44,582 nucleotides of DNA, from contig JAGLXM010000028.1 of assembly GCA_023132915.1 (NCBI GenBank), positions 1 through 44,582 of the forward strand, written 5' to 3'. A program made the position numbers and the translations under genes. The notes beneath the pieces are model-generated. The model was given only the letters and a program-made list of their open reading frames with translations. It was not told where the DNA came from and made no database searches. This document shows, in pieces, positions 6,299 to 12,663 of this stretch (its first letter is position 1; each line of letters opens with the position of its first letter). Source of the stretch: Candidatus Bipolaricaulota bacterium. Lineage in GTDB: Bacteria; Bipolaricaulota; Bipolaricaulia; UBA7950; UBA9294.

Positions 6299-7346
6299 CT
6301 TGCCCCCTCAAGCCTGCCTTGCAGGAGCCGACAAGGAGTGCCTCCAAGCGGTTTGCAATGTAGCTTGTCGTTGAAAGCGCCTTGCCATAGTCCATCCATA
6401 GGGGAGCGATCACACCGAGTATCCCGGAATGCGGACGGTAGTCGGAGCTTACCACGCTGTACTCCTCTAGGCCAGGGAGCGGACAGCTGCTAACTGCGGC
6501 CATTACTCCTTCTCTGTCCCCACGGATTGTTCGGATTGCCTCGGTAAATGCGCGCTCGTCTTGCACGGCGTTGATCAATTTGACGAAACGCTTCATCGCG
6601 TGAGCAGGGGCCACCTCCTGTAAGCTATCAGCGAGGTTCAGAATTCCCTCGAAGTAGAGGCGCTGACGGTTCCGTCGCTCCAGGATGTGGCGTAAGACTA
6701 ATAATGCCTGACGCACCGGTGGCTCATACCACCCTTCCGGTCCGTCTTCAAGCGTCAGTTCTCGCACCGCGTCGAGGCTTACCCCACACAGGTTGTCGTT
6801 GATTAACTGCGTCACCCGGTCGATCTCTTCCTCGGGGAGATCCTTTTCGAGCGGGATCAGCCTGTGTTCGATGACGCCGATATCAGAGACAATTATCAGA
6901 AGGACCATTCTTGGCTCCATCCTTATCAGGACTACTCGGTCGAGGCGTGTCTCCTCCAAGCGAGGTGGAATGACGAACCCTGCGTAGCCGGTGATGTTCC
7001 CCAACAAGAAAGCCGTCTGGCGCATCGTCTCTCCCACTTCCAGGCAGCGCACCCCGTAAGCCTCCACCACTTCTAGGCGTTCCTTCTTTGTCAGTTCGGA
7101 GAGGTCGAGGAGCCAGTCGACGAAGAAGCGATATCCCTTCTTAGTCGGGATCCGTCCGGAGGAGGCGTACGGTTTCTCGATGTATCCGGCTGCTTCTAGA
7201 TCATTCATGTCGTTGCGTACGGTGGCGGAACTGACAAGTAACCCGTAATCATCGAGGATCATCCTCGAGGAGACGGGCTCGCGCCGCCGGATATAGCGGT
7301 CGACGATCTCTTTCAAGATAAGCCTTTGTCTTTCTGGAAGGGTCAT
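6288..7346 (-). CDS. hrcA: Heat-inducible transcription repressor HrcA
   Basis: Repressor that binds CIRCE operators and shuts off chaperone genes when GroEL keeps it folded. The N-terminal winged helix (LPERQRLILKEIVDRYI, then SSATVRNDMNDLEAAGYI and SGRIPTKKGYRFFVD) is characteristic. The family's central domain and C-terminal GVIAPLWMDYGKAL follow. A longer reading from a GTG at 7361 is possible. That codon lies inside the CIRCE element, which spans 7355-7381, so I place the start at ATG 7346, giving 352 aa. The ribosome site there is weak (AAGAG). It is first in the hrcA-grpE-dnaK-dnaJ operon and should autoregulate. Confidence 0.95.
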   Translation of the reverse strand: MTLPERQRLILKEIVDRYIRRREPVSSRMILDDYGLLVSSATVRNDMNDLEAAGYIEKPYASSGRIPTKKGYRFFVDWLLDLSELTKKERLEVVEAYGVRCLEVGETMRQTAFLLGNITGYAGFVIPPRLEETRLDRVVLIRMEPRMVLLIIVSDIGVIEHRLIPLEKDLPEEEIDRVTQLINDNLCGVSLDAVRELTLEDGPEGWYEPPVRQALLVLRHILERRNRQRLYFEGILNLADSLQEVAPAHAMKRFVKLINAVQDERAFTEAIRTIRGDREGVMAAVSSCPLPGLEEYSVVSSDYRPHSGILGVIAPLWMDYGKALSTTSYIANRLEALLVGSCKAGLRGQDGG

Positions 7347-7354
7347 TCTGGCTC

Positions 7355-7381
7355 TTAGCACTCTCCAATGGTGTTTGCTAA
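7355..7381 (-). promoter_or_regulatory. CIRCE operator (HrcA binding site)
   Basis: On the plus strand the sequence reads TTAGCACTC, nine bases, then GTTTGCTAA. The established CIRCE consensus is TTAGCACTC-N9-GAGTGCTAA. The first arm is perfect and the second matches at seven of nine positions. It lies directly downstream of the hrcA promoter -10 box and just upstream of the ATG at 7346, so bound HrcA would block transcription of its own operon. Confidence 0.9.
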
Positions 7382-7410
7382 ATGATAGCCCCTCCGACCT
7401 TTGTTGTCAA
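7382..7410 (-). promoter_or_regulatory. Sigma-70 promoter of the hrcA operon
   Basis: Read on the minus strand: TTGACA (7410-7405), a 17-base spacer and TATCAT (7387-7382). The predicted transcript start falls near 7375, inside CIRCE. The -35 box is consensus and the -10 box has five of six matches. Confidence 0.85.
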
Positions 7411-7427
7411 TATGGGGTAAGTTCCTC

Positions 7428-7456
7428 TTGACAAGCTTAGAGGTTATCTATATGAT
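7428..7456 (+). promoter_or_regulatory. Sigma-70 promoter for the binding-protein gene and its leader
   Basis: TTGACA at 7428-7433, exactly 17 bases, then TATGAT at 7451-7456. This is near-perfect consensus and faces away from the hrcA promoter, whose -35 box is only 17 bp distant. Predicted transcription start is about 7463, leaving a leader of about 260 nt before the coding sequence at 7723. Confidence 0.85.
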
Positions 7457-7465
7457 GGGCTTAAG

Positions 7466-7558
7466 ATGATAGAGGCGAAGAGGCATGTACATAGTGGGTT
7501 GATGAACGGCTTCTTCCGCTTTTATTGGACTATTGCTGGCTTTCCTGCGCTCACCTAG
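7466..7558 (+). CDS. Putative aromatic-rich leader peptide upstream of the binding-protein gene
   Basis: A 30-codon ORF from ATG 7466 to TAG 7556, with an in-frame ATG at 7502 giving an 18-codon version, MNGFFRFYWTIAGFPALT. The run TTC TTC CGC TTT TAT TGG (7511-7528) encodes FFRFYW. The stop is followed at once by TAA, so it ends in tandem stops, and these lie inside a perfect ACCTAG-TAA-CTAGGT hairpin. The 7466 start would sit almost at the predicted transcript 5' end, leaving the message near leaderless. The 7502 start has no clear ribosome site but overlaps the stop of a 5-codon ORF beginning at 7485. The composition recalls known phenylalanine attenuator peptides such as the E. coli pheST leader. 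No homology evidence is available, and the ORF could be chance. Confidence 0.5.
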   Translation: MIEAKRHVHSGLMNGFFRFYWTIAGFPALT

Positions 7559-7625
7559 TAACTAGGTAGTAGTAGAGGGAGAGCCAGAAGACGACTACAG
7601 GCAATGCCTGTGGTCTTTATTTTTA
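7536..7625 (+). terminator. Structured leader with terminator-like hairpin (attenuator candidate)
   Basis: CTGGCTTTCC (7536-7545) can pair with GGAGAGCCAG (7578-7587), ten pairs with one G-U, enclosing ACCTAG-TAA-CTAGGT (7553-7567). Directly after comes a second hairpin with arms ACAGGC (7597-7602) and GCCTGT (7606-7611), extendable by flanking pairs. It is followed by the T-rich TCTTTATTTTTA (7614-7625). It lies between the promoter and the gene at 7723, so read-through would have to be controlled. I could not identify a clear antiterminator pairing by eye. T-box and lysine-riboswitch cores are not recognisable. Confidence 0.6.
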
Positions 7626-7722
7626 GGCGGCCTTATCCACTGGGTCGAGAAAGGAGGTGAGCGTTTCGAAGAGACTGCTAGAGACTGTATAGGTAGGCAC
7701 ATAAATATTCAGGGAGGTTAAC

Positions 7723-8937
7723 ATGCGACGAGTTTCAGTTTGTCTGTTGGTAGTTGGGCTAGTTTTGGGATTGGCGATCACCGCCACCGCAGCGGAGACG
7801 ATTAAGATTGGTGCCTTGATGTCGCTGACCGGAGCTCTAGGCCCATACGGCCCTTCGATTGTCAATGGCGCTCAGATGGCCGTTGATCAGATCAACGCCG
7901 CGGGCGGAGTATTAGACAAACAGTTGGAGTTGGTGATACGGGATACAGCTACCTCGCCCGATGTCGGACGCGATGCCGCCAGCAAGCTGGTGGAGCTCGA
8001 TAGAGTCCCGGCGATCGTGGGAGCCCTCTCCAGTGGTGTCACCCTGGCGGCGTCCAGTGTGACCATCCCTGCTGAGGTGGTCTTGATTTCACCCGCCTCA
8101 ACCGCCCCTTCGATCCCGGCATTGGACGACAACGACTACGTGTTTAGGACGGTTGTATCAGACGAGGTGCAAGGGGTGGTTCTGGGCCGACTTGCCATGC
8201 TCCTCAACTACAAGAAGGTTTCTATCACATACGTCAATAATGATTACGGCAAAGGCCTGGCCGATACGTTCAAAAACACTTTTGAAGCCTTAGGTGGCCA
8301 AGTATTGGCAATGGTCGCCTATGAGGAGAATAAGCCCTCCTACCGCGGTGAGGTGGATAATCTCATGGCGGGGGACCCGGAAGCGATCGTCATGGTCAGC
8401 TATCCGGTGGATGGGAACAAACAGATCGTGGAAGCGATTGAGGCTGGTTACCAGGGCGATTTCCTCATGACCGACGGGATGAAGGGCGAGGGAGTTGCCC
8501 CCGGCCCGGCATGCGCATCCGCAGAAGCCCCTGGTCCTATTGAAGGGTCATACGGCACGGTGGCGGCCGCTGGTTTCAAAGCTGATCAGTTCGAAGCCGA
8601 CTTTGATGCAGGGGGGTATGGACCAAGTACAATTCCTTACCACGACAAAGCATACGATGCGGTGATGCTGATCGCTCTAGCCATGATCAGGGCGGGAGAA
8701 GCGACAGGGCCAGCGATCCGTGACAACTTGCGGGCTGTTGCCAATAGCCCTGGGGAGGAAGTCTTCTATGGGGAGTGGGGCAAAGCTGTTTCACTCCTGA
8801 ACCAAGGAAAGGAGATCAACTACCAAGGCGCTGCTGGATTGGTCGACTTCAAGGATACCGGGGATGTATCAGGGGCTATCTTGATTTGGAAGATCGAGGG
8901 ATGCCAGGTTGTATCCGTCATGGAGGCCCCTGGATAG
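7723..8937 (+). CDS. LIV-type amino-acid ABC transporter, periplasmic/extracellular binding protein
   Basis: Captures an amino acid and hands it to the LivHMGF-type membrane complex. A signal peptide is evident: basic MRR, hydrophobic core LLVVGLVLGLAI and small residues ending TATAAE. There is no lipobox cysteine at the cleavage site. The mature protein starts IKIGALMSLTGALGPYGPSIVNGAQMAVDQIN, the hallmark of the type I (Peripla_BP_6, LivJ/LivK-like) fold. At 404 aa it is normal length. ATG 7723 follows GGGAGG at 7711-7716. Its permease and ATPase genes lie downstream on the opposite strand, converging on it, so the transporter is expressed from two separate promoters. The ligand is not determined. 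LIV-type proteins bind branched-chain and sometimes aromatic amino acids, and the Phe/Tyr/Trp-rich leader hints at the latter. Confidence 0.92.
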   Translation: MRRVSVCLLVVGLVLGLAITATAAETIKIGALMSLTGALGPYGPSIVNGAQMAVDQINAAGGVLDKQLELVIRDTATSPDVGRDAASKLVELDRVPAIVGALSSGVTLAASSVTIPAEVVLISPASTAPSIPALDDNDYVFRTVVSDEVQGVVLGRLAMLLNYKKVSITYVNNDYGKGLADTFKNTFEALGGQVLAMVAYEENKPSYRGEVDNLMAGDPEAIVMVSYPVDGNKQIVEAIEAGYQGDFLMTDGMKGEGVAPGPACASAEAPGPIEGSYGTVAAAGFKADQFEADFDAGGYGPSTIPYHDKAYDAVMLIALAMIRAGEATGPAIRDNLRAVANSPGEEVFYGEWGKAVSLLNQGKEINYQGAAGLVDFKDTGDVSGAILIWKIEGCQVVSVMEAPG

Positions 8938-9037: not shown

Positions 9038-10060
9038 TCACTTGAAGATTTTTGAGGCCCGCTTCTCTCGCTGCAATAGCCCCTGAGGACGGCAAAGCAG
9101 GATAACCTCCAGCAGTATCGCAATGATGATGATGCGAAGTGAGGCCGCCTGGGTAGCGGAGAAGGGGAAGTAACCGGTCAAAAAGTCGGTCCCCGCCCAG
9201 ATCCCCCATACGACAAAGCTACCGAGGATGGCGCCTTTGTTGTTTCCACTCCCTCCCAGGACCAACATTACCCAGACAAGAAAGGTCCCGTAGAGGGGTT
9301 TGAACGAGGCGGGAGAGATAAACCTGGCGTAGTGGGCGTAGAGGCTCCCGCCGATTCCCATGATCATCGCGCCTAGCACGAGGGCTTGTATCTTGAAGGA
9401 AAAGGTGTTCTTGCCCGACATCGCAGCGGCATCCTCGTCCTCGCGGATGGCCTTTACCGCGCGTCCCCAAGGGGAGCGCACGAGACGCTGCATGATGAGA
9501 TAGAGGATAAAGAGGATGCCCAGAACTAAAAGGAGATAAAACCAATTATACGACTTGAAGATCAGATCGTGCACCCATGGTGATAAGTCAGGATGTCCTC
9601 CCAGGAATCTGGCTACTCCTCTGTGGATTGGATCATAGAACGGGGAAGGGATCTGCTGAAGTCCCCACACACCGTTGGTGAGCCAAGACTCGTTCTTTAG
9701 CACCAATCGGATCGTCTCAGCTATCCCGATCGTGGCGATCGCGAGGTAATCCGCCCTGAGACGCAGAGTAGGAATACCGACCAGCAGAGCAACAACTCCG
9801 CAGACGACGGCCGCCGCCAGCAGCCCAACGAGGAAGGGGAGCTCAAACCCCCCGAAGATGCGACCGTCCCATGCGCCAGGCGGCGGGCCAGAGACCAGGG
9901 CCGCTGTATATGCGCCCACCGCGTAGAATCCAGCGATCCCGATGTTGAATAGGCCGGTATACCCCCACTGGATGTTTAAGCCCAGGGAAAGGATTCCGTA
10001 GGTGCCAGCTGTAATAGCGAAGAAGACGATGTAGTTTATTATTCCGACAATCGTGTCCAT
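9038..10060 (-). CDS. livM: LIV-type amino-acid ABC transporter permease LivM
   Basis: Inner-membrane permease of the LIV family (340 aa, normal length). It has about nine to ten hydrophobic segments. Family signatures include YGILSLGLNIQWGYTGLFNIG near the N-terminus, the region GIPTLRLRADYLAIATIGIAE, and the ATPase-contact (EAA-like) loop SPWGRAVKAIREDEDAAAMSGKN near residues 220-240. The ATG at 10060 shares one base with the livH stop (TAATG), so translation is probably coupled. It is the last gene of livG-livF-livH-livM on the minus strand and converges on the binding-protein gene. Confidence 0.95.
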   Translation of the reverse strand: MDTIVGIINYIVFFAITAGTYGILSLGLNIQWGYTGLFNIGIAGFYAVGAYTAALVSGPPPGAWDGRIFGGFELPFLVGLLAAAVVCGVVALLVGIPTLRLRADYLAIATIGIAETIRLVLKNESWLTNGVWGLQQIPSPFYDPIHRGVARFLGGHPDLSPWVHDLIFKSYNWFYLLLVLGILFILYLIMQRLVRSPWGRAVKAIREDEDAAAMSGKNTFSFKIQALVLGAMIMGIGGSLYAHYARFISPASFKPLYGTFLVWVMLVLGGSGNNKGAILGSFVVWGIWAGTDFLTGYFPFSATQAASLRIIIIAILLEVILLCRPQGLLQREKRASKIFK

Positions 10061-10983
10061 TATCGCCTCTTCCCTAGCAGTCCGGTTGGCTTGATCAGCA
10101 ACATGATGATCATGATGATGAAGGCCACAGCCGGTTTATACCCGGTGGATATGAACGCGGTTGAGACCTCTTCGGAAAGGCCTATGATCATCCCTCCAAG
10201 GATCGCCCCGTAAGGGTTGCCGAGTCCACCCAGGACGACGGAGGCAAAGATAGACAGGAGCATCTGCCACCCTAACTCCGGGGTGATGAACTTGTTCTCA
10301 ATCCCGGCGAGGATCCCTGCCGTCGCTGCTAAGGCAGCGCCAATCACCCATGTCCAAAGGATCACCCGTTCCGTATTGATACCCGTTACTCGGGCAAGCG
10401 CCATATTATCCGCAGTAGCACGCATCGCCTTACCCATCTTGGTGTGTTGCAAAAAGTAGTGGACCAATCCGACCGATACTATAGCGGCGATAATGATAAA
10501 CACCTGGTCGGGCTTGATCCTAACGCCTACCCCAGGGATCACGATAGCCAGTTGTATCTTCTCTATGTAGTAGTGCGGCTGCGGCCCCCAGAAGAATTGA
10601 AGGACGTTCCGTAGGCCCAATGCGACTCCAATTGAAGACATCATCAGAATGATCGAGCTAGTGTGCCGCAACCGTTTAAAGAGGAACCGGTCGATCAGGA
10701 CTACCGTCAAGGCAGTCAGCCCCATAGCTAGAATAAAGGAGAGGATGAAACCGAATCCGAAGGAGAGTGGACCAAGAGGAGTACTGGGAATTCCCAGTCC
10801 AGCGGTTAGAGTAAATAGTCCAAGGGCGATGTATGCGCCAAGGGCCATGAAGTCACCATGAGCGAAGTTGGCGAAACCCAGGATGCTGTAGGTGAGGGAG
10901 ACGCCAATCCCTCCCAGGGAAAGGATACTCCCTGAGATGACACCGTATATAAGCAACTGTGGAATTCTTGATAGTATCTGCAT
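10060..10983 (-). CDS. livH: LIV-type amino-acid ABC transporter permease LivH
   Basis: Partner permease (307 aa). Family features are the N-terminal LLIYGVISGSILSLGGIGVSLTY, then ILGFANFAHGDFMALGAY, which is highly typical of LivH. The coupling loop TKMGKAMRATADNMALARVTGIN and the C-terminal GGLGNPYGAILGGMIIGLSE are also present. About eight transmembrane helices are visible. The livF stop lies 9 bp upstream of its start and the livM start overlaps its stop, so the genes form one transcription unit. Confidence 0.95.
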   Translation of the reverse strand: MQILSRIPQLLIYGVISGSILSLGGIGVSLTYSILGFANFAHGDFMALGAYIALGLFTLTAGLGIPSTPLGPLSFGFGFILSFILAMGLTALTVVLIDRFLFKRLRHTSSIILMMSSIGVALGLRNVLQFFWGPQPHYYIEKIQLAIVIPGVGVRIKPDQVFIIIAAIVSVGLVHYFLQHTKMGKAMRATADNMALARVTGINTERVILWTWVIGAALAATAGILAGIENKFITPELGWQMLLSIFASVVLGGLGNPYGAILGGMIIGLSEEVSTAFISTGYKPAVAFIIMIIMLLIKPTGLLGKRR

Positions 10984-10992
10984 TTGTTTCCT

Positions 10993-11697
10993 CTACCCGC
11001 CCAGGTAGAGCTGCCCGATCTCCTCGTTGGCCAACAGGTTCTCACCTGTATCTTCGAAGCGGTTCTGTCCACTGGCCAGAACGTACCCCCGGTCAGCCAG
11101 CTTCAAGGATTCCTTGGCGTTCTGTTCCACAATGAGGATCGAAACGCCGGTCTCGTTGATCGCGGTGATTCTTTCAAAGATCATCTCCGCCAACTTCGGC
11201 GCCAAAGCAGCGGAGGGTTCGTCTAACATGAGCAACTCCGGGTCGAGCATCAGTGCCCGGCCCATCGCTACCATCTGCCGTTCACCTCCTGACATTTTTC
11301 CTACCCGCTGCCGCCGCCGTTTTTTCAGAAAGGGGAAGAGCTCATAGACATCCTCCAGGCGGGCGCTGAAGTCATCGGTAAGGATGAAGGCGCCCATCTC
11401 CAGGTTCTCATGGACGGTGAGTGAGGGGAAGACGTTCTCCACTTGGGGAACATAGGCCATCCCCAAGCGGACTATTCGATCAGGTGCCAGTCCAGTGATA
11501 CTGTTTCCCTTAAAGGTGACACTTCCCTTTGTGGGTTTGAGCAACCCGAAGATTGTTTTCAACAGGGTCGACTTTCCGGCCCCGTTTGGACCAATGATCG
11601 AGATGATCTCTTTCTCCTCTATGCGGAAGGAGACGTCGTGAAGGACCTCCATATCTCCGTAGCCACTATGGATCCCATCACCCGTCAATAGCGACAT
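10993..11697 (-). CDS. livF: LIV-type amino-acid ABC transporter ATP-binding protein LivF
   Basis: ATPase subunit with Walker A GPNGAGKST, Q-loop VPQ in MAYVPQVENVFPSLT, signature MSGGERQM, Walker B LLMLDEPSAALAP and switch EQN in place of the H-loop HD, as is normal for LivF. I choose ATG 11697 (234 aa) over a TTG at 11709 because GGAGG lies five bases upstream of the ATG. It overlaps the end of livG by 20 bases. A diverged, truncated paralogue is present at 37928-38575. Confidence 0.94.
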   Translation of the reverse strand: MSLLTGDGIHSGYGDMEVLHDVSFRIEEKEIISIIGPNGAGKSTLLKTIFGLLKPTKGSVTFKGNSITGLAPDRIVRLGMAYVPQVENVFPSLTVHENLEMGAFILTDDFSARLEDVYELFPFLKKRRRQRVGKMSGGERQMVAMGRALMLDPELLMLDEPSAALAPKLAEMIFERITAINETGVSILIVEQNAKESLKLADRGYVLASGQNRFEDTGENLLANEEIGQLYLGG

Positions 11698-12451
11698 ACT
11701 GTCCTCCAAGGTAAGCGTCGAGCACCTGTTGGTCTTGCTGGACCTCTTCGGGAGTTCCCTCCATCAATTTGCGCCCTTCGCTCATCACAATCACCGGGGT
11801 GCAGAGTCTCATGATAAAGTCCATATCGTGTTCGACAACGAGGAAGGTCGTCCCCGTCTCCCCACACAACCGTTCGATAGAGCTGGCAAGGCGTTTCAGG
11901 AGGGTGCGGTTTACTCCCGCACCGGGTTCATCTAGCATGACCAGTCGGGACTCGACCATCATGGTTCGAGCCAGCTCCAGGAGCTTCTTCTGGCCGCCGG
12001 AGAGACTACCTGCATACTCATCTTTTAGATGGGAAAGCTGCAAGAAGTCCAGGACTTCAAATGCCTTATCACAGATCGTACGCTCCTGCCGATGCACCCT
12101 CCGTGGCCGAAAGAATGGGTTCCAAATCCTTTCACCGATCTGTCCGGGGGGCACGAGCATCAGGTTCTCCATCACCGTCATCTCCTTCAACTCGCGGGGG
12201 ATCTGAAAGGTTCTACAAATCCTTTTTTGGAAGATGCGATGGGGTGGCAGACCCGTAATGTCCTCTTCCGCAAGGTGAACCTCGCCGCTATCGGGTTTGA
12301 GAAAACCGGTGAGGAGATTGAATACAGTGGTCTTGCCCGCGCCGTTCGGCCCGATCAGCCCGGTGATCGTACCTTGCTTTACCGTGAACGAACAACCGTC
12401 CACAGCGTGCAGCCCACCAAACTGCTTGGCAAGGTTTTCGACAACAAGCAC
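11678..12451 (-). CDS. livG: LIV-type amino-acid ABC transporter ATP-binding protein LivG
   Basis: ATPase subunit with Walker A GPNGAGKTT, the LivG-typical TGFLKPDSGEV, signature LSGGQKKL, Walker B LVMLDEPGAGVN and H-loop EHDMDF. An ORF from 12487 exists, but the strong AAGGAGG at 12457-12463 would then be inside the coding region. That site lies five bases before a GTG at 12451, which begins the conserved VLVVENLAKQFGG, so I take GTG 12451 (257 aa) as the start. It is the first structural gene of livGFHM and sits just downstream of a terminator-like attenuator and a leader ORF. Confidence 0.93.
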   Translation of the reverse strand: MLVVENLAKQFGGLHAVDGCSFTVKQGTITGLIGPNGAGKTTVFNLLTGFLKPDSGEVHLAEEDITGLPPHRIFQKRICRTFQIPRELKEMTVMENLMLVPPGQIGERIWNPFFRPRRVHRQERTICDKAFEVLDFLQLSHLKDEYAGSLSGGQKKLLELARTMMVESRLVMLDEPGAGVNRTLLKRLASSIERLCGETGTTFLVVEHDMDFIMRLCTPVIVMSEGRKLMEGTPEEVQQDQQVLDAYLGGQYVAIDG

Positions 12452-12470: not shown

Positions 12471-12510
12471 AAAGAAAAAAACCGCAAGCCTTTCGGCTTT
12501 CGGTTTGCGG
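12471..12510 (-). terminator. Rho-independent terminator in the livG leader (attenuator candidate)
   Basis: On the minus strand CCGCAAACC (12510-12502) pairs with GGCTTGCGG (12490-12482) around an 11-base loop, with an alternative inner GCC-GAAA-GGC hairpin. It is followed by seven T, one C and three T (12481-12471). It lies only 20 bases before the livG start, between promoter and gene, so unregulated termination here would silence the operon. Confidence 0.8.
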
Positions 12511-12512
12511 GT

Positions 12513-12539
12513 CTAGTAGCGCCTATCAGACGCTACTAG
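12513..12539 (-). promoter_or_regulatory. Perfect hairpin overlapping the leader-peptide stop codons
   Basis: CTAGTAGCG and CGCTACTAG form a perfect nine-base-pair stem around a nine-base loop, immediately before the terminator hairpin. The tandem TAG-TAG stop codons of the leader ORF lie in the 5' arm as read on the minus strand. A ribosome terminating there would melt the stem, a geometry expected of translation-sensitive attenuation. Confidence 0.65.
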
Positions 12540-12616
12540 TTCGCCCAATGAATCATAAAATAGCAATTAAAAGTATCGCTAGCCGTTCGCACCTCCAGGA
12601 TAGAAGCCTGTCGCAT
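12536..12616 (-). CDS. Putative leader peptide upstream of livG
   Basis: A 26-codon ORF with a strong ribosome site (AGGAGG, 12626-12621, then AAAG and ATG at 12616). The C-terminal part reads FNCYFMIHWAN and is followed by tandem stops TAG TAG. The predicted transcript start (about 12628) leaves a 5' UTR of only about 12 bases. It is followed by a perfect hairpin and a terminator before livG, the classic order of an attenuator. The aromatic-rich end and tandem stops resemble the leader ORF of the binding-protein gene at 7466-7558. It is too short for a similarity argument; the call rests on position, ribosome site and architecture. Confidence 0.6.
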   Translation of the reverse strand: MRQASILEVRTASDTFNCYFMIHWAN

Positions 12617-12634: not shown

Positions 12635-12663
12635 ATCCTAACAGAATCGTCTGAAGCTGTCAA
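12635..12663 (-). promoter_or_regulatory. Sigma-70 promoter of the livGFHM operon
   Basis: Read on the minus strand: TTGACA (12663-12658), 17 bases, TAGGAT (12640-12635). The spacing is optimal and the -35 consensus. Predicted start is about 12628, just upstream of the leader-peptide ribosome site. Confidence 0.8.

Follow-up and report, generated by a model that had tools for sequence, protein, structure and literature searches.

Pathway-matched codons in near-leaderless leader ORFs suggest a ribosome-mediated amino-acid attenuator in Bipolaricaulota

The leader in front of a LIV-type substrate-binding protein gene of an uncultured Bipolaricaulota bacterium, together with its relatives in front of other amino-acid genes, very probably acts as a ribosome-mediated transcription attenuator responding to amino acids. 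This reading is based on sequence comparison: the codon content of the leader ORFs tracks the downstream pathway, and the position and frame of these codons are fixed. The window, meaning the whole analysed stretch of 44,582 nucleotides, belongs to a metagenome-assembled genome with 91% completeness and 7% contamination, and the genomes compared with it are of this type as well. Transcription start, termination and read-through are predictions from sequence. A sequence-only reading of positions 7428-7722 had described an attenuation layout with a consensus promoter, a short ORF encoding FFRFYW, hairpins and a terminator ahead of the binding-protein gene, and this layout was recovered in 29 loci.

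The binding-protein transcription unit begins with the promoter TTGACA-17-TATGAT (7428..7456, plus strand), which matches the sigma-70 consensus at 11 of 12 positions. The -35 element TTGACA covers 7428-7433 and the -10 element TATGAT 7451-7456, with a spacer of 17 nt; spacing and position were alike in orthologous loci. Two promoter-like sites were found in 7300-7800 versus 0.5 expected. The frame encoding FFRFYW, MIEAKRHVHSGLMNGFFRFYWTIAGFPALT, runs over 30 codons from ATG 7466 to the stop codon TAG 7556 (7466..7558, plus strand). Its start is most likely ATG 7466, about 3 nt past the expected transcription start, and ATG 7502 is an internal in-frame ATG. ATG 7466 follows the -10 element by 9 nt, matching the homologues, and the ORF would be nearly leaderless. 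Based on inferred transcription starts, the same applies to 37 of the 49 non-livG leaders with a good promoter, in which the ATG is located 9-10 nt past the -10 element.

Three hairpins follow on the plus strand. In hairpin A (about 7468..7526), the part of the ORF next to the start codon pairs with the region of the FFRFY codons. The upstream half of the ORF is part of this RNA structure and the FFRFYW codons lie within and just past its 3' arm. Hairpin B (7536..7587) carries the stop codon inside its 5' arm, and 5 nt separate its 3' foot from the intrinsic terminator T, which consists of GACTACAGGC-AAT-GCCTGTGGTC and a U tract (7593..7624, stem 7593-7615). Hairpins A and B were identified by folding and covariation, and T by folding and a terminator search that returned one site versus 0.4 expected. 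The minimum free energy of the leader was -67.6, compared with -48.2 ± 3.8 in shuffles (z = -5.1), and none of 200 shuffles was as low. Tandem stop codons inside a hairpin had also been described. The placement of the stop codon in the 5' arm of B was retained, but tandem stops were not general among the leaders.

Several further elements were noted around the leader. Downstream of T, AAAGGAGGTGA (7650..7660, plus strand) is almost fully complementary to the 16S tail and has no start codon close to it. It is located about 60 nt ahead of the binding-protein start and recurs after the terminator in most loci of f1, the family of the window. In a paralogue group (L027, L121, L122 and L123), a post-terminator SD was followed by a second mini-ORF starting with MMY. 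GGAGGTG was present inside the leader ORF, as Lys/Leu-Glu-Val codons, in family f4 (L029-L037) and in the livG leaders (L222-L233). TRAP-like (G/U)AG repeats were seen by eye at 7556-7586 but were not kept in homologues, and the complementarity of an SD-like element to hairpin B (AGGUGAGCG with CGCUCACCU) was perfect in the window but absent from most homologues; both candidates were rejected. On the minus strand at 7355-7410, a divergent promoter (TTGACA-17-TATCAT) and a degenerate CIRCE-like repeat, TTAGCACTC..GTTTGCTAA, belong to hrcA.

The upstream regions of binding-protein orthologues and paralogues were read in relatives. The ORF, hairpin B and terminator T were all kept in 29 of 29 readable loci, comprising 22 of family f1 and seven of family f4. 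A recognisable leader copy was lacking in the f6 homologues L038 and L039. In L032 (G074, family f4), the whole leader between the -35 element and the SD is missing, representing a natural deletion or an assembly collapse at the hairpins. Leader identity between subgroups was only about 35-65%, and the structure was nonetheless kept. A single MAFFT alignment of 20 sequences left A and B unresolved, so subgroup alignments were used. With nine sequences, 92.8% of the cells were paired and double, compensating changes occurred in 18 of 48 pairs. None of 500 shuffles scored as high and slid structures were 41-49% paired. This comparison of homologous loci, which the earlier reading had suggested as a check, supported the helices. 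In the homologue group, 8 of the 15 pairs in the helix of hairpin A showed double changes, and the duplex of the 5' arm of this hairpin (A5) with the control region had a mean z of -3.1 in binding-protein leaders. Hairpin B had a mean energy z of -3.6 over 69 leaders. The terminator sequence GACTRCRG..CYGYGGTC was present in 17 of 36 relatives, and the reversed control pattern in none.

A covariance model from nine binding-protein leaders was run over 100 genomes. It matched the binding-protein leaders and many other places in the same family, with up to six matches per genome. The genes downstream encoded homoserine dehydrogenase (hom) and aspartokinase; type I chorismate mutase and prephenate dehydratase (aroH-pheA); PF04392 (trpX-type) binding proteins with permeases; PLP enzymes of Cys/Met metabolism (cystathionine-synthase-type); glutamine synthetase followed by livGF; and a hypothetical protein followed by an HTH-like protein. 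A terminator pattern scan added further trpX leaders, and the backwards pattern returned none. The leader peptides of hom carried Thr (...GYTTTTCISVSL, ...GGTTTTFVSASP), where the start codons of L171, L178 and L183 were our choice. Those of aroH-pheA carried Phe/Tyr/Trp (...SFYWYYYFKTGFPLRT, ...SSFFWFITGFPVRV), that of trpX was ...SSRWYWFSVGISAFA and that of the Cys/Met enzyme ...SFMMMC. Permutation gave p ≤ 2e-5 for Thr in hom leaders, aromatic residues in aroH-pheA and trpX leaders and Leu/Ile/Val in LIV-type leaders, and p = 0.027 for Met in cystathionine-synthase-type leaders (n = 2 loci); these p-values overstate independence, as the leaders share descent. The hom gene of the window genome had no evident leader and its assembly yielded no type I chorismate mutase, so the match between codons and pathway rests on the relatives.

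Other loci with such leaders were recorded alongside. Leaders with Thr runs (L169, L173, L177, L176, L184, L185 and L190) precede a protein of 110-160 aa and an HTH-like protein (VTLDEVARFLGLSKRAVR...). Two tested proteins of this unit had no Pfam match, and the unit is possibly threonine-responsive. In L192, L204 and L209, a second strong inverted repeat, CCCGCCCG..CGGGCGGG with GGACGATC/GATCGTCC, is located between the terminator and trpX and had no match in Rfam. In G017 (contig C37), the leaders L180 and L187 are located ahead of a glutamine synthetase-livGF unit and of a class III aminotransferase, near two binding-protein copies.

The geometry of the control codons was counted in leaders with a clear hairpin B after removal of duplicates. 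In the ORF frame, control residues occupied 83% of the positions 6-17 nt before the foot of B. They accounted for 88% of codons at 6-11 nt, 79% at 12-17 nt and about 15-20% further upstream of the 5' foot. The LIV-type control set is broad, so the narrow classes (Thr, Met and aromatic) provide the cleaner test. Here, 100 of 120 residues at 6-17 nt were control residues in frame versus 7 and 2 of 120 in the other frames (83% versus 6% and 2%), and 10 of 300 (3%) were control residues 30-59 nt upstream. In the window, F7520, Y7523 and W7526 are at upstream distances of 16, 13 and 10 nt from the foot of B. The stop codon of most leaders was positioned between 5 nt before and about 21 nt inside the 5' arm of B. 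The footprint of a ribosome with a control codon in its A site ends about at the foot of B. Together with the placement of the stop codon, this suggests that B remains folded while a ribosome is stalled and is opened by a ribosome that terminates. The gap between B and T was 0-5 nt in 97% of leaders versus 74% in shuffles, a spacing that is partly built into the hits of the RNA model but not into the livG and f4 leaders.

The sequence-only reading had assigned aromatic control to the transporter. For the binding-protein gene of the window this is plausible, since its leader resembles the aroH-pheA and trpX leaders and Phe, Tyr and Trp occupy the critical 10-16 nt. Among the orthologous leaders it was the exception, being closest to these two groups (70-79% of aligned bases) and not to the leader of the sister genome G002. 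The assignment did not extend to the transporter in general. Orthologous leaders kept an open frame with hydrophobic control codons, but their peptides were mixed (HLVYWITLF, FLVYFIIMLL, SLWFAYYIWL, FGMMM and GYWFLMM), and orthologous and livGFHM leaders carried Leu/Ile/Val/Met together with aromatics. Such mixed codons are as expected for a hydrophobic-amino-acid transporter. Past T, the window is nearly identical to G002, but the leader of G002 differs. Identity with the G002 locus (L044) breaks between 7417 and 7587; both flanks are homologous and the leader at 7418-7586 is not clearly so. At this junction, G002 carries a 2.6 kb operon for a polar-amino-acid-type ABC transporter. A leader exchange, in either direction, is likely, judging from these alignments.

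The binding protein (7723..8937, plus strand) matched Peripla_BP_6 with 3.2e-48. Its structure model (pLDDT 90.5) had 3td9 and 4gnr as the best solved matches and resembles LivK/LivJ-type proteins, a likeness that does not decide the ligand. The fold and the liv permease and ATPase partners place it among the LIV/HAAT substrate-binding proteins, while it fell far short of the curated LivJ/K model, with 105 bits against 477. According to domain matches, a livG-livF-livH-livM-like transporter operon (9038..12451, minus strand) is convergent to the binding-protein gene. Peripla_BP_6, two BPD_transp_2 permeases and LivG/LivF-like ATPases are shared with hydrophobic amino-acid ABC importers. Unlike the norm for these importers, binding protein and livGFHM form separate convergent units with one leader each. 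The livGFHM promoter is TTGACA-17-TAGGAT (12635..12663, minus strand). A second leader ORF, MRQASILEVRTASDTFNCYFMIHWAN, with the SD AGGAGG precedes livG (12536..12616, minus strand) and had a counterpart in nine genomes of the family. It is followed by a hairpin B (12544-12508) and a terminator (12507-12479; together 12479..12544, minus strand; minimum free energy -53.5, z -3.7). These livG leaders with an SD were found by protein search and not by the RNA model.

The earlier reading could not identify an antiterminator by eye, and a systematic search agreed with it. Duplex energies were set against those of shuffles for 72 leaders, and enrichment was limited to A, B and T themselves. The control region, A5, B5 and B3 showed mean z values of -0.32 to +0.25 against T5 or T3, and a sliding scan of T3 against all upstream windows found nothing, with no mean z below -0.4. 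The window leader had no candidate helix of at least five strong pairs. Single-locus candidates were present in L014 (UCUGUGG with T5 CUACAGG), in some hom leaders and in family f4, where B5 GCUCC can pair with T5 GGAGC in 7 of 7 leaders but pairs better with its own B3. With T5 and T3 matched to each upstream segment, by locus and with loci pooled, no usual base-paired antiterminator was found by sequence complementarity across these 72 leaders. When folding was constrained by ribosome position, T formed at every position in thermodynamic models, and the switch step is unexplained by standard folding. Classical trp-type attenuation in which such pairing was overlooked, as a pseudoknot, a few-base contact or a locus-specific helix, would accommodate the single-locus candidates; against the negative result of the search, we consider it rather unlikely.

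Three other explanations compete with ribosome-mediated attenuation. Adjacent hairpins are common at terminators (PMC8355165), and B adjoins T, which would suit a tandem-hairpin terminator in which a ribosome at the stop codon lowers termination and raises expression when amino acids are plentiful. This logic is backwards for the biosynthetic hom and aroH-pheA genes bearing the same element, and the explanation is improbable. Nascent-peptide arrest, in which a hydrophobic leader peptide stalls the ribosome upon an amino acid or the membrane state, had been kept as an option by the sequence-only reading and is now disfavoured to the point of being very improbable. The C-terminal half is hydrophobic in LIV-type leaders and the peptides have 21-36 residues, but only composition and position are conserved, the C-termini differ between loci, and the Thr, Met and aromatic versions follow the pathway. 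A conserved arrest sequence of the TnaC/SecM type was not found in the peptides. Equally little weight is given to a translation-independent RNA element, such as a riboswitch or a protein-binding leader, in which the ORF would arise incidentally from pairing with the strand that holds the start codon. In its favour, the conserved stems are strong and some of the run of codons falls within the 3' arm of hairpin A. Against it, every gene class has frame-specific control codons at a set distance from B, and the joint probability of finding the frame open by chance in 12 divergent leaders is about 10^-7.5. Searches of Rfam, including T-box and other leader families, gave no match at the gathering score and none meaningful at E ≤ 5.

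The comparison of leaders indicates that the near-leaderless ORF is translated and that its Phe, Tyr and Trp codons let a waiting ribosome just touch the 5' foot of B, whose 5' arm contains the stop codon and which adjoins T. Under the favoured attenuation, a shortage of aromatic (hydrophobic) aminoacyl-tRNA would stall the ribosome before B, B would stay folded, T would fail and the gene would be transcribed. With plentiful aminoacyl-tRNA, the ribosome would reach the stop codon and open B, so that T could form and terminate. Because no base-paired antiterminator was found, we tentatively propose that B in its folded state, located 0-5 nt ahead of the T 5' arm, might sterically impede closure of the T stem at the exit channel of RNA polymerase. 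The opposite effect, a contribution of adjacent hairpins to termination, has been argued for (PMC8355165). Hairpin A would probably limit re-initiation on the leaderless ORF or pace RNA polymerase over it.

Ribosome-mediated attenuators of the trp, his, pheA, thr and ilv type combine a leader ORF with control codons, a stop codon in structured RNA and a terminator. The present leaders share the ORF with codons for the regulated amino acid, the stop codon in structured RNA and the intrinsic terminator before the gene. Unlike these systems, the terminator arms are without an upstream complement, B adjoins T without overlap, the ORF is leaderless and one scaffold serves several pathways; the mutually exclusive antiterminator sharing a terminator strand was not found in 72 leaders. 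Among described systems, Corynebacterium ilvBNC comes closest and has the near-leaderless uORF in common with the present leaders. Transcription of ilvBNC/ilvB-II starts one nucleotide from the uORF start codon, and ilvB-II has a uORF rich in the regulated amino acids, hairpins, a terminator and an antiterminator that pairs with part of the terminator (3' shoulder with an upstream loop), with the motif present once per genome (PMC11857589, PMC10272879). In contrast, no pairing of T3 with an upstream loop was found here, the phylum is different and up to six matches occurred per genome. Candidate leader peptides of actinobacteria have terminators and lack some classical components, and the abstract of that study describes no B-T scaffold shared across pathways (PMC1262725). 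A literature search of incomplete coverage found no paper on attenuators in Bipolaricaulota.

As a tentative view, the leaders may form a modular family of leaderless-ORF attenuators that is specific to the phylum. Codon exchange would adapt one A-B-T scaffold to Thr, Met, aromatic, Trp and hydrophobic amino acids, and a ribosome-gated hairpin would stop termination sterically, without base competition. If B blocks T without shared bases, this would be a mode of ribosome-gated antitermination distinct from the textbook mutually exclusive hairpins. In uncultured Bipolaricaulota, the leader codons would report the controlling amino acid, by which transporter substrates and unassigned genes may be assigned.
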